A stretch of DNA of 64,000 nt, from assembly GCF_030323265.1 (NCBI RefSeq), contig NZ_CP104992.1, positions 4,129,501 through 4,193,500 on the forward strand, in the 5' to 3' direction. Within the stretch, counting starts at the first letter, position 1; each line of letters starts with the position of its first letter. The notes below the pieces were generated by a model. That model searched no databases. It saw only the letters and a list, made by a program, of their open reading frames with translations, and had not been told where the DNA came from. Positions 5,849 through 59,875 of the stretch are shown piece after piece. Source of the DNA: Terrirhizobium terrae (GTDB taxonomy: Bacteria; Pseudomonadota; Alphaproteobacteria; Rhizobiales; Rhizobiaceae). The position numbers and the translations under genes are program-made.

Positions 5849-6519
5849 ACACGGAACTGGTTGCGCTGACCGGCGATCACGACATCACCGAAAAGCTGGA
5901 AGCCTATTTCAGAACCGTCGACGCCTGGAGCGAGGGCCGAGACGAGCTCGGTCTTTTACCGCGACCCGAAGCGATCGAGCAGACTGAGAATTTTCGAAGC
6001 TTTCATCCGCTGGTCAGGACACTCCAAGGCATAGTTCTGGATGATCCCGACACGAGCAACCATCATGTGGTTGTGTGTCGCAGCCCGCTAGAAGGAACGG
6101 TCGTTTATCTGGCTCATGACGGCGACAGCCGGATCGTTTTCGACGGCATTACAAGCTTCATGGAAGCGGCCCGCCGTGCTTCTGATGCCGGAGGTTTCCT
6201 GGATGATGAGCATCCGCAACATGCTTGGATCGCCGGCGATCAGGCCGGCTTGAAGAGCCTCATCGCGCAGCTATGTTCGGAAGCGGATAACGAAGATATC
6301 GTCCCGGTTCTTGTGCCCTCGCTCGACCTCTCCGACCCGGATTATCTGTCCATCCTTGTCGGTGGCGATGACGTTTACGTCGCGGAAGCGCTATGCCGGA
6401 CGATAGCTCAGCGCCCGATGCCGCATCTGATGCAGGTTGCCGAGCAAGGCGAGCAACATCCGCACCCGATGGTGCGCAACGCCGCCACTCTCGCGCGAAA
6501 GCGCATTTCAGGGCTCTAG
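5845..6519 (+). CDS. Hypothetical protein, 224 aa, translationally coupled to hemF
   Basis: The start codon overlaps the hemF stop in an ATGA, so it is probably co-translated with hemF. The protein is acidic, soluble, and has no signal peptide or membrane helix. I do not recognise a domain; the C-terminal third ([14 protein letters not shown] stretch, helices) resembles a short helical repeat, and the middle has a beta-rich region ([21 protein letters not shown]). No catalytic motif is evident. Function unknown; a role next to haem synthesis is only implied by position. Confidence 0.75.
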
Positions 6520-42055: not shown

Positions 42056-42175
42056 ATAAAAAAGCCGCCTCGGGTCTCGGGCGGCTTGGTCTCGTCTTGT
42101 CGATGGACATGACTGGTCAAGGCCGCGTCAGCGTGCCCACCACCAGTTACCGTTGTTGATCATCGAAATCGTCAT
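42056..42175 (-). ncRNA. rnTrpL: rnTrpL: attenuator RNA of trpEG
   Basis: Leader transcript that starts at the trpL ATG and ends at a terminator about 120 nt later (stem AAGCCGCC / GGCGGCTT at 42062-42069 and 42080-42087, then a U run). In Sinorhizobium the released RNA also acts in trans; this is knowledge of the family and not shown here. Confidence 0.85.
42128..42175 (-). CDS. trpL: TrpL leader peptide, 15 aa
   Basis: The frame reads [15 protein letters not shown] and stops at 42128. Three consecutive Trp codons (TGG TGG TGG) sense Trp-tRNA: ribosome stalling there would prevent the terminator at 42062-42087 from forming and allow trpEG transcription. The start codon is 8 nt after the -10 box, so it is leaderless, as known for rhizobial trpL. 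Confidence 0.93.
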
Positions 42176-58447: not shown

Positions 58448-58897
58448 TCAGAGCCCGAGATTGGCGATCTCGGCGTCCAGCCGATCCTTGGCCTTTTTCG
58501 GCATCTTGGCTGCCTTGACCGCATCGATATTTGCGGGCGCATCACCGACGACGACGAGCGCCACCATGCCCATGCCGAAATGCGGCGTGCACTTGAATAC
58601 GTAGGCACCGGGTTGATCGACGGTAACCGACAGGTCCTGGCTCATCTTGCCCTTGATCGCGGCAACGCCGTCCGGCACGAGGCCCGGCAGCGAGGCTGCG
58701 TCATGGCCCTTATCGACGGCGACGAACTTGATCGTGTCGCCGGGTGCAGCCTTGACGGCTGCAGGCTCGAACACCATCGCCTGGCCGTCCGTGCCCTTGT
58801 TCATCATCTTGATCTCGATCTCGGCAGCAAGCGCCGGCAGTGCCAATAGGCTCATGCCGGCAGCCAGAACGAGGGAAGTGAGACGGGTCTTGGTCAT
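58448..58897 (-). CDS. Pseudoazurin-type blue copper protein
   Basis: A periplasmic electron carrier of 149 residues. The signal peptide is MTKTRLTSLVLAAGMSLLAL to LAA. The type-1 copper ligands are present: His in KGHDAAS, and Cys, His and Met in KCTPHFGMGM. The DUF-free length fits pseudoazurin, which feeds electrons to copper nitrite reductase in denitrifying rhizobia; no nir genes are in this window. AGGAGAA precedes the ATG at 7 nt. A 269-bp inverted-repeat element ends 46 bp upstream of the start. Confidence 0.92.
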   Translation of the reverse strand: MTKTRLTSLVLAAGMSLLALPALAAEIEIKMMNKGTDGQAMVFEPAAVKAAPGDTIKFVAVDKGHDAASLPGLVPDGVAAIKGKMSQDLSVTVDQPGAYVFKCTPHFGMGMVALVVVGDAPANIDAVKAAKMPKKAKDRLDAEIANLGL

Positions 58898-58943
58898 TAG
58901 AAATTCTCCTGCGGGGATCACGCGAAACCGTGGCAACGGTGTT

Positions 58944-59212
58944 CTAGGGTCAAAACTCAATCAGGATGGGTGTTCTGCAAGCTGTATTTTGTGCCTGAGT
59001 AGGAGGGAAGTGCAGAAAGTGCCAATCACTTTCAAACTTCTCCGACGCCCGCAGGCACAAAATACAGCTTGTCCGAAGGATTGAACGGGATGGGCCGCCT
59101 GATCGCGAACAATGCTCGACAAGACCTTCGGGTCTTGCCTTGCGCTTGTTCGCTTCCATTCGATCCCATCCCGTTCAACAGAACACCCATCCTGATTGAG
59201 TTTTGACCCTAG
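58944..59212. mobile_element. 269-bp nested inverted-repeat element (MITE-like)
   Basis: The ends are a perfect 34-bp inverted repeat (58944-58977 and 59179-59212) bounded by CTAG. Inside lie two further perfect inverted repeats that abut it: 20 bp at 58978-58997 / 59052-59071 and 14 bp at 59081-59094 / 59165-59178. Further small stems fill each arm (GAAAGTG/CACTTTC; GCGAACAA/TTGTTCGC; CAAGACC-TTCG-GGTCTTG at 59120-59137). A transcript would fold into a three-way junction. No transposase gene is present; CTAG ends fit insertion by an IS630- or IS427-type enzyme duplicating TA. It sits in the upstream region of pseudoazurin. Confidence 0.8.
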
Positions 59213-59293
59213 CCCTCCTCCCGGAGCACGCTTTGACATCGGTCAATTGTAGCGCGCAAGACAATCCCGCCTGACGACCGGACACGATCGCGT

Positions 59294-59875
59294 TTACTCG
59301 CAGCGCATCGCCTCTTCCCAGTGGCGGCGGCAGAGCGACACGTATTTCTCGTTGCCGCCGACCTCCACCTGAGCGCCCTCGCGGATCACCTCGCCCGCCT
59401 CGTCGACCCTGACCACCATCGTCGCCTTGCGGCCGCAATGGCAGATGGTGCGCACTTCGCGCAGCTCGTCGGCAATCGCCAGAAGCTCCAGCGAGCCTGG
59501 AAACAGCTTGCCCTGGAAATCGGTGCGCAGCCCATAGGCCATCACGGGAATACCGATCCGGTCGGAGACCCGCGCCAGCTGCCAGGCCTGTTCGGCCGAC
59601 AGGAACTGCGCCTCATCGACGAAGACGCAGGCGATCGGCTCGGCGGCATGCATCTCGCTGATCATCGAGAACAGGTCTTCGCCGCCACCGAAGGGGATCG
59701 CCTCGGACGACAGTCCGATCCGCGAGGCGACGCGTCCCTTGCCGGCGCGATCGTCGAGCGCGGCGATGAAGATCGCCGTGCGCATGCCCCGTTCCCGGTA
59801 GTTATACGAAGCCTGCAACAGCATCGTCGACTTGCCGGCATTCATCGTCGCGTAGTGGAAATAGAGCTTGGCCAT
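59294..59875 (-). CDS. tdk: Thymidine kinase
   Basis: A 193-residue type II thymidine kinase of the salvage pathway. The P-loop is MNAGKSTMLLQA, the DEAQFL motif is the Walker B with the catalytic Glu, and the zinc residues lie in ICHCGRKA and CRRHW. The ATG at 59875 starts with the conserved MAKLYFHYATM. It precedes no close partner; pit ends about 90 bp upstream. Confidence 0.95.
   Translation of the reverse strand: MAKLYFHYATMNAGKSTMLLQASYNYRERGMRTAIFIAALDDRAGKGRVASRIGLSSEAIPFGGGEDLFSMISEMHAAEPIACVFVDEAQFLSAEQAWQLARVSDRIGIPVMAYGLRTDFQGKLFPGSLELLAIADELREVRTICHCGRKATMVVRVDEAGEVIREGAQVEVGGNEKYVSLCRRHWEEAMRCE

Follow-up and report, generated by a model that had tools for sequence, protein, structure and literature searches.

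A 263-bp element with a very stable predicted fold lies directly upstream of the pseudoazurin gene of Terrirhizobium terrae, in the 64,000-nucleotide stretch of contig NZ_CP104992.1 that we analyzed (hereafter the window). Comparison with related loci makes it probable that this is a MITE moved by an IS427-type transposase, that it carries a conserved structured core, and that it has displaced the activator site of the pseudoazurin gene. In this reading, the element would be non-autonomous, moved in trans by an IS5-family enzyme that recognizes its ∼20-bp ends, and would insert at CTAG or YTAR with duplication of the TA; unlike an ordinary deleted IS, it would hold a conserved core of two arms, with the same rigid hairpin frame in one arm or, in part of the family, in both, and in arm 1 only in the window copy. 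MITEs are usually seen as decayed IS ends around filler, and here the filler is the conserved part, which opens to direct test a long-standing question, namely, whether the MITEs of bacteria bring along structured RNA or DNA with a function or merely hitchhike.

The inserted element, its target, and a candidate IS partner

The element was described in an earlier note as a 269-bp set of nested perfect inverted repeats that ends in CTAG 46 bp from the pseudoazurin ATG (58897, minus strand), and this geometry is confirmed throughout. The 34-bp terminal repeats are perfect (Table 1) and enclose two abutting perfect inverted repeats of 20 bp (58978-58997/59052-59071) and 14 bp (59081-59094/59165-59178), with a TTCG tetraloop at 59127-59130. 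The proposed junction fold of the whole element also holds, with the correction that it contains three hairpins (arm 1, a TCCGAAGGA mini-hairpin, and arm 2) rather than two. Its folding energy is −170 kcal/mol versus −76.7 (SD 4.9) for 200 dinucleotide shuffles (z = −19), none of which folded as stably, and at the position of the mini-hairpin relatives carry CCGAAGG, CCGCAGG, or a CCCTACGGG-like sequence. The open reading frames that overlap the 263 bp are mechanical ones only, and the element is short and non-coding, as a MITE would be. Rfam 15 reported nothing on the element at the gathering score, and in E-value mode the element and 17 distinct loci gave only subthreshold matches; the lowest E value (0.001, to the Brucella sRNA BSR1073) came with 26.6 bits against a cut-off of 241 and was taken as chance, as were weak matches to miRNA hairpin families. 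Elsewhere in the window, an RcsR1 sRNA (RF02552) scored 80.9 bits at 42058-42156 on the minus strand, above its gathering score.

Table 1. Features of the insertion locus, in window positions
Feature	Positions	Strand	Basis
MITE proper, 263 bp, GGGTCAAAAC...GTTTTGACCC	58947..59209	.	G040 empty site and relatives
Left target TA copy, within CTAG	58945..58946	.	Empty-site comparison; TA at both ends in 25/30 elements
Right target TA copy, within CTAG	59210..59211	.	Empty-site comparison
Left terminal inverted repeat (TIR), 34 bp including CTAG	58944..58977	+	Perfect match to right end
Right TIR, 34 bp including CTAG	59179..59212	-	Perfect match to left end
Arm 1, long hairpin	58978..59071	+	Conserved motif on + strand; R1 match
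Mini-hairpin TCCGAAGGA separating the arms	59072..59080	.	Sequence and fold
Arm 2, hairpin with TTCG loop	59081..59178	-	Inverted repeat and fold
Pseudoazurin gene, downstream of the insertion	58448..58897	-	TIGR02375, 157.9 bits, over cut-off
Thymidine kinase gene, upstream of the insertion	59294..59875	-	PF00265
TTGACCGATGTCAA, FNR/FixK/NnrR-type box, 342 bp from ATG	59233..59246	-	Comparison of homologous loci
TAGAAC, presumed -10 hexamer, its TA the insertion target	58941..58946	-	Position; TAAAAC in relatives

An exact empty site is present in the closest relative at this locus (genome G040, locus L126), whose pseudoazurin protein is 94% identical and whose neighborhood aligns across the insertion point: at that point CTAG occurs just once in G040, GTGTTCTAGCC, and the window reads GTGTTCTAGGG...CCCTAGCCC, that is, CTAG-element-CTAG. 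Relative to G040 the TA is doubled, and TA is found at both ends in most of the elements examined (Table 1). The base flanking the TA varies between related copies while the TA itself is mostly kept, and the transposed unit is for this reason probably the 263-bp MITE proper of Table 1 with a TA duplicated on each side. At five insertions in Rhizobium paknamense and Allorhizobium sonneratiae (L263, L272, L277, L283, and L291), CTY-TA or GCTY-TA was read on both sides, which suggests a palindromic target such as GCTYTARAGC.

The genome holds more than one copy of the element: a second one (G000:C3:103018-103224; L002 and L092) is 207 bp long, with the same perfect 34-bp ends intact and an internal deletion that removes much of the arm stems and with them the two-arm fold. 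Matches at E ≤ 0.001 were recovered in 10 of 57 genomes of the genus (own genome included, and some by the ends or a part only); the copies in G029, G030, G031, and G045 span most of the element. G036 has 25 matches to the 15-base end at ≤1 mismatch. In this last genome, an element directly adjoins the end of a second copy that appears to be partial, with a single TA common to both (L069, 1619-1620); a different G036 locus, L071, holds two copies in the same orientation ∼4.9 kb apart (1192 and 6121-6390). Named genomes contributed 38 loci, 12 in R. paknamense and 14 in A. sonneratiae, of which 36 yielded an element and two lay at a locus edge; 43 sequences from this set passed the length and N filters, 40 of them distinct and 19 left after reduction. 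Among 30 elements of 200 to 300 bp, 10 are of the window's kind (A-type, including the window copy and its deleted sister) and 20 are B-type, with the same ends and layout and other arm sequences. Their length from TA to TA is 267 to 271 bp, except in the deleted sister and in the tandemly expanded L067 (292 bp); before pairs were counted, the deleted copy L092 was left out of the A rows, and L067 (expanded end) and a spurious L160 pair were left out of the B rows. In a plasmid collection, the window element and another A-type element each matched a single record and a B-type element matched four, and searches of phages and viral contigs gave no match.

According to a simple ORF caller, 33 loci, which include elements counted from both ends and so are not 33 independent insertions, comprise 17 between codirectional genes, 9 between converging genes, and 5 between diverging genes, with 2 possibly intragenic. 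At 10 of the 33 (L009, L015, L046, L058, L179-L181, and L183-L185), a neighboring ORF ends 76 to 78 bases from an arm center, at the element border, and the TAG of the element may be the source of its stop codon.

A candidate source of the transposase was found in a different genome from this bacterial family, where an 850-bp IS5 element (L105) has ends that each differ at only 2 of 20 bases from the outer 20 bp of the MITE, counted from the TA. Its two overlapping frames score 146.8 and 116 bits with NF033580 (cut-off 110) and match Pfam DUF4096 and DDE_Tnp_1. The 20-base end pattern (≤2 mismatches) occurs in 37 of the 394 family genomes searched, that of T. terrae among them, and pairs of such ends bound elements of 838 to 865 bp in L105, L113-L117, L121, and L123, as well as one of 1404 bp in L118. 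The L117 transposase also exceeds the NF033580 cut-off (139.7 bits), as do the L237 and L238 pieces (120.1 and 134.5 bits), while the L241 piece falls just below it (105.6 bits) and the L113 piece further under (78.2 bits). None of the transposase sequences of these six IS (L105, L113, L117, L237, L238, and L241) matched IS630. Mobilization by an enzyme of IS630 or IS427 type had been suggested, and the second half of that suggestion is supported, with IS5 transposases over cut-off between matching ends and a TA duplication, while for the first no match was found among these six IS. The MITE reading itself is supported by the exact empty site, the duplicated TA, the dispersed copies, and the IS with matching ends, and as a mobile element it is ordinary in kind.

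In the T. terrae genome itself, we found no IS with matching ends; the best relative of the L105 transposase is distant (42% identity), a 10-base exact scan detected no TAGGG-type ends around three of the five transposase matches, and no further copy of the element ends was present at ≤1 mismatch. With only distant transposases and no further ends in its genome, the local element looks orphaned.

A conserved arm hairpin and its folded strand

The arms are the surprising part of the element. We identified 49 distinct arms that fit a single gap-free frame, GGAG-38 nt-CGACG, by a scan that allowed Watson-Crick pairs only and three fixed letters; the frame runs from an outer stem through a 2x3 internal loop, a G-C pair, a tandem GA/GA, 8 bp, a 3x2 internal loop, and 7 bp to a 5-nt loop, with the internal loops at fixed places. 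It did not occur once in 978 kb of base-shuffled loci. Arm 1 of the window is one base shorter than the frame and is thus not among the 49, but a model (R1) trained on an alignment (A1) that contains arms of relatives and not that of the window recovered it at 58988-59064 on the plus strand with 71.4 bits (E = 3.3e-22 in 361 bases). Arm 2 of the window was not recognized by R1 (8.7 bits, minus strand).

In a nonredundant set of 29 arms, AGGAG and CGACG are invariant or nearly so, and beyond them two columns reach at least 90% conservation. In the structure, 90.1% of cells are paired, and 25 of 28 pairs have changed on both sides. The covariation measure was 0.658 against a shuffled mean of 0.232 (none of 500 shuffles equaled it) and fell to at most 0.177 when the pairing was slid by up to 3 columns; a measure based on further pair types was less extreme, being reached by 29 of the 500 shuffles. 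At the level of sequence comparison, a conserved, strand-specific arm motif is well supported as a structure.

The motif also shows which strand folds. A G-T pair on one strand is an A-C pair in the view from the other, so the two would be equally frequent if neither strand were selected; in the motif orientation, G-T exceeded A-C by 125:11 in the 49 arms and 75:7 in the 29 arms (pair 14-32, at which arm 1 of the B-type slides, was left out of these counts; with it, the first becomes 125:27). The excess was found again in 18 further arms from other families (37:4), across 97 arms (227:17), and in 16 arms at most 59% identical (29:7; 13 arms versus 1, p = 0.002), the later arm samples having been drawn from loci found with R1, which tolerates G-U. 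These counts indicate that one strand of the motif is selected as a folded single strand, be it RNA or single-stranded DNA.

When only the pairs common to the predicted folds of both strands were counted, no such preference was seen in the terminal repeats (2:1 in A, 4:5 in B), while in the B-type arm 1 gave 6:2 and arm 2, where the motif is on the other strand, gave 3:10. In the A subfamily the asymmetry of such pairs is weak (5:2 in arm 1, 4:5 in arm 2, and 6:3 in the TIR). Whole-element counts of 9:3 (A-type) and 13:17 (B-type) could be taken to mean no strand preference; the arm-wise, motif-oriented counts rule this out for the B-type, in which the asymmetry cancels because the two arms lie on opposite strands. 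Counts over the union of both strands include doubtful pairs and are uneven in the TIR (14:24 in B, 10:3 in A), so we use them as support only, and region counts from a single-strand fold, being biased, were left out.

Whenever two arms both fit the frame, they are inverted relative to each other (21 of 21 pairs, all distinct, with centers 107 to 109 bases apart), as are close R1 pairs (12 of 12 among the matches listed). This two-strand layout characterizes part of the family, since B-type copies from the window's family account for 18 of the 21 frame pairs and since, for 60 distinct arms with enough sequence on either side, no partner within the strict frame was found. Two such arms on opposite strands would present one correctly folded motif in a transcript, or in a strand exposed by replication, whichever way the element was inserted.

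The earlier note had set a structured RNA against a MITE as alternatives. The two are not exclusive: arm 1 does belong to a covarying, strand-specific motif, whose folded strand may be RNA or single-stranded DNA. The covarying structure of the arms, with its RNA-like wobble preference, is what a functional RNA would have, and it is also compatible with single-stranded DNA. The principal alternative, which we rate as possible though on the unlikely side, is that the arms are REPIN-like hairpins of single-stranded DNA, with a transposase or host factor binding the motif strand during replication and the inverted pair offering one site per strand. The inverted doublet with its constant spacing in copies with two frame arms would suit this, a strand asymmetry would also be expected (G-T being, we presume, the mildest DNA mismatch), and the copies are not confined to contexts of transcriptional read-through, with 5 of the 33 loci between divergent genes. 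However, the ends and the TA duplication indicate a DDE transposase, which needs no hairpin, and G-T makes up ∼10% of the arm pair cells (125/1225), a share that we take to be RNA-like. We consider a role as RNA the most likely, at about even chances: a host protein would bind the motif, or the motif would resist decay, so that insertions beside genes would be tolerated or even useful.

Displacement of a presumed activator site of pseudoazurin

The element lies between the stop of the thymidine kinase gene (59294) and the start of the pseudoazurin gene (58897), both on the minus strand, and the earlier note had argued that it must affect or carry the pseudoazurin promoter. A box of the TTGA/TTGAC-N4-TCAA type, which at pseudoazurin genes we take to be an FNR/FixK/NnrR activator site, is present in 29 of 30 pseudoazurin-like loci, window included; the 30 come from the 52 of 57 genomes with a pseudoazurin match, and four of them (L148 and L151-L153) lack the thymidine kinase side and may be paralogues. 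The pattern matches once in the window against 0.01 expected. In the 28 other loci the box precedes the start of the aligned protein match by 76 to 108 bp, compared to 342 bp in the window, and an effect on the promoter is borne out to this extent. In the empty site, the target TA begins the hexamer TAGAAC, which aligns with TAAAAC in several relatives and whose distance to the box is, we presume, the expected -10 spacing for such an activator. The element has thus entered the presumed -10 box and moved the FNR/NnrR-type site from about 76 to 342 bp upstream, a displacement that would uncouple pseudoazurin from low-oxygen or NO control; regulated expression of the gene is very probably broken by the insertion. 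The locus is a clean natural experiment, in which sister species have the site either occupied or empty and the promoter box has been shifted away from its gene.

It is unlikely, in our judgment, that the element has instead given pseudoazurin a new promoter or 5′ leader by which expression is kept or raised. The presumed -10 hexamer and the Shine-Dalgarno region are intact beside the ATG, and the TIR ends in TTTTGACC, which we take to be -35-like, but no -10 is found 16 to 18 nt from TTGACC, and a sigma-70 scan of the region detected no consensus promoter on either strand. The cost of such a loss of regulation may have been small: a model of the Cu nitrite reductase NirK had no match in the T. 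terrae genome (estimated completeness, 91%), and the effect on the promoter may for that reason have no consequence for denitrification.

Persistence and spread of the core, and comparison with known systems

A different account of the conserved pairing takes the element for an ordinary MITE in which template-switch correction at DNA hairpins alone maintains the perfect palindromes, with no selection on structure. In agreement with it, nearly all cells of the TIR are Watson-Crick pairs (289/297 in the A-type and 540/551 in the B-type), and in two copies (L170, 327-594, and an A-type copy of A. sonneratiae) arm 2 is a perfect palindrome with its internal loops erased, as correction would do; in these two lineages the loop-erased arm is likely the footprint of that process. 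As an account of the arms in general it is improbable, because the GA/GA, 3x2, and 2x3 loops keep their places in arms that share no more than 59% identity, because the preference for G-T over A-C follows the motif strand and flips between the two B-type arms, and because loops and asymmetry survive in independent lineages, an outcome contrary to it. Misassembly of perfect palindromes does occur, but an assembly artifact or chance palindrome can be dismissed here given the copies in G029, G030, G031, G045, and named genomes, the second copy in the same genome, and the exact empty site in G040.

The selected arm motif extends well beyond the window's family. R1 arms were recovered in 45 of the 297 genomes searched within the order, which represent 30 of its 122 sampled genera (E ≤ 1e-4), in 19 of 385 genomes of the class (E ≤ 1e-5), and in 14 of 398 genomes of a phylum sample (E ≤ 1e-5), 3 of them outside the class; these samples overlap, all include the T. 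terrae genome, and 11 to 16 candidates per genome were scored. The matches outside Alphaproteobacteria are in G1311 (six matches), G1212, and G1201. The core is found between different terminal repeats, for example, TAGGGTGCGGACCC in G520, TAGGGTCAGGACCTA in G470 and G183, TAGGGCCAGGACCTGG in G045, and TAGGGCCTGTTGACAG in Terrarubrum. In G520, two elements of ∼840 bp (L237 and L238) are bounded by ends similar to those of its core, and in G045 just one end of such an IS was seen (L241). From these end sequences, we read the pattern as a single structured core that several IS5 lineages carry, although a gradual divergence of the ends together with their transposases is possible; even then the core is the better-kept part. 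On a plasmid of Terrarubrum flagellatum (L176, 2470-2770), a core bounded by TAGGGCCTGTTGACAG repeats separates genes for sarcosine oxidase subunits and is on account of this position probably inside an operon.

We tentatively suggest, with somewhat less than even confidence, that Alphaproteobacteria carry an undescribed structured module, the GGAG/CGACG hairpin, often as a two-strand doublet, which would be a selected passenger or symbiont of IS5-type transposition; its fold would persist through exchanges of the terminal repeats between IS lineages, and in doublet form it would show one functional folded strand in either orientation. This class of folded elements is apparently widespread in alphaproteobacteria and undescribed: in the open-access literature, we recognized no paper describing it. 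RIME, the Rhizobium-specific intergenic mosaic elements, are palindromic intergenic repeats of rhizobia and are alike by description. REPINs, or REP doublets, which are moved by RAYT transposases, are likewise mobile, non-autonomous units built on two strand-specific hairpins in inverted orientation, but they are much shorter, lack DDE-type terminal repeats and a TA duplication, and have a different hairpin.

In its mobility the element resembles the IS427 group of the IS5 family, whose members are ∼850 bp long with two overlapping frames and 2-bp duplications, and IS with ends like TAGGGTCRAAACYCAATCAG have IS5-type transposases; a CTAG-like target with duplication of TA is also a feature of the group. 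IS427-group elements carry their transposase, whereas the present element consists of ends and structured core alone. Examples from Paracoccus are ISPaes1 and ISPpa6, which belong to this group and have 2-bp direct repeats (PMC3281130). Among tagged palindromes (GTAG or CGTC), the CGTC type occurs in alphaproteobacterial orders, often as head-to-head dimers, but has stems of 8 to 9 bp and loops of 4 to 5 nt, and the parts of the description consulted mention no IS5 ends (PMC3733652); on these dimensions it is ruled out as the identity of the arms. QMITE1 and QMITE2 of Coxiella burnetii differ in their direct repeats of 2 to 4 or 7 to 9 bp, and the consulted part of their description reports no paired motif, covariation, or strand asymmetry; compared by description, they resemble the present element as bacterial MITEs with very stable folds, and they often overlap the 3′ ends of genes, with sRNA transcripts in three cases (PMC5896051).
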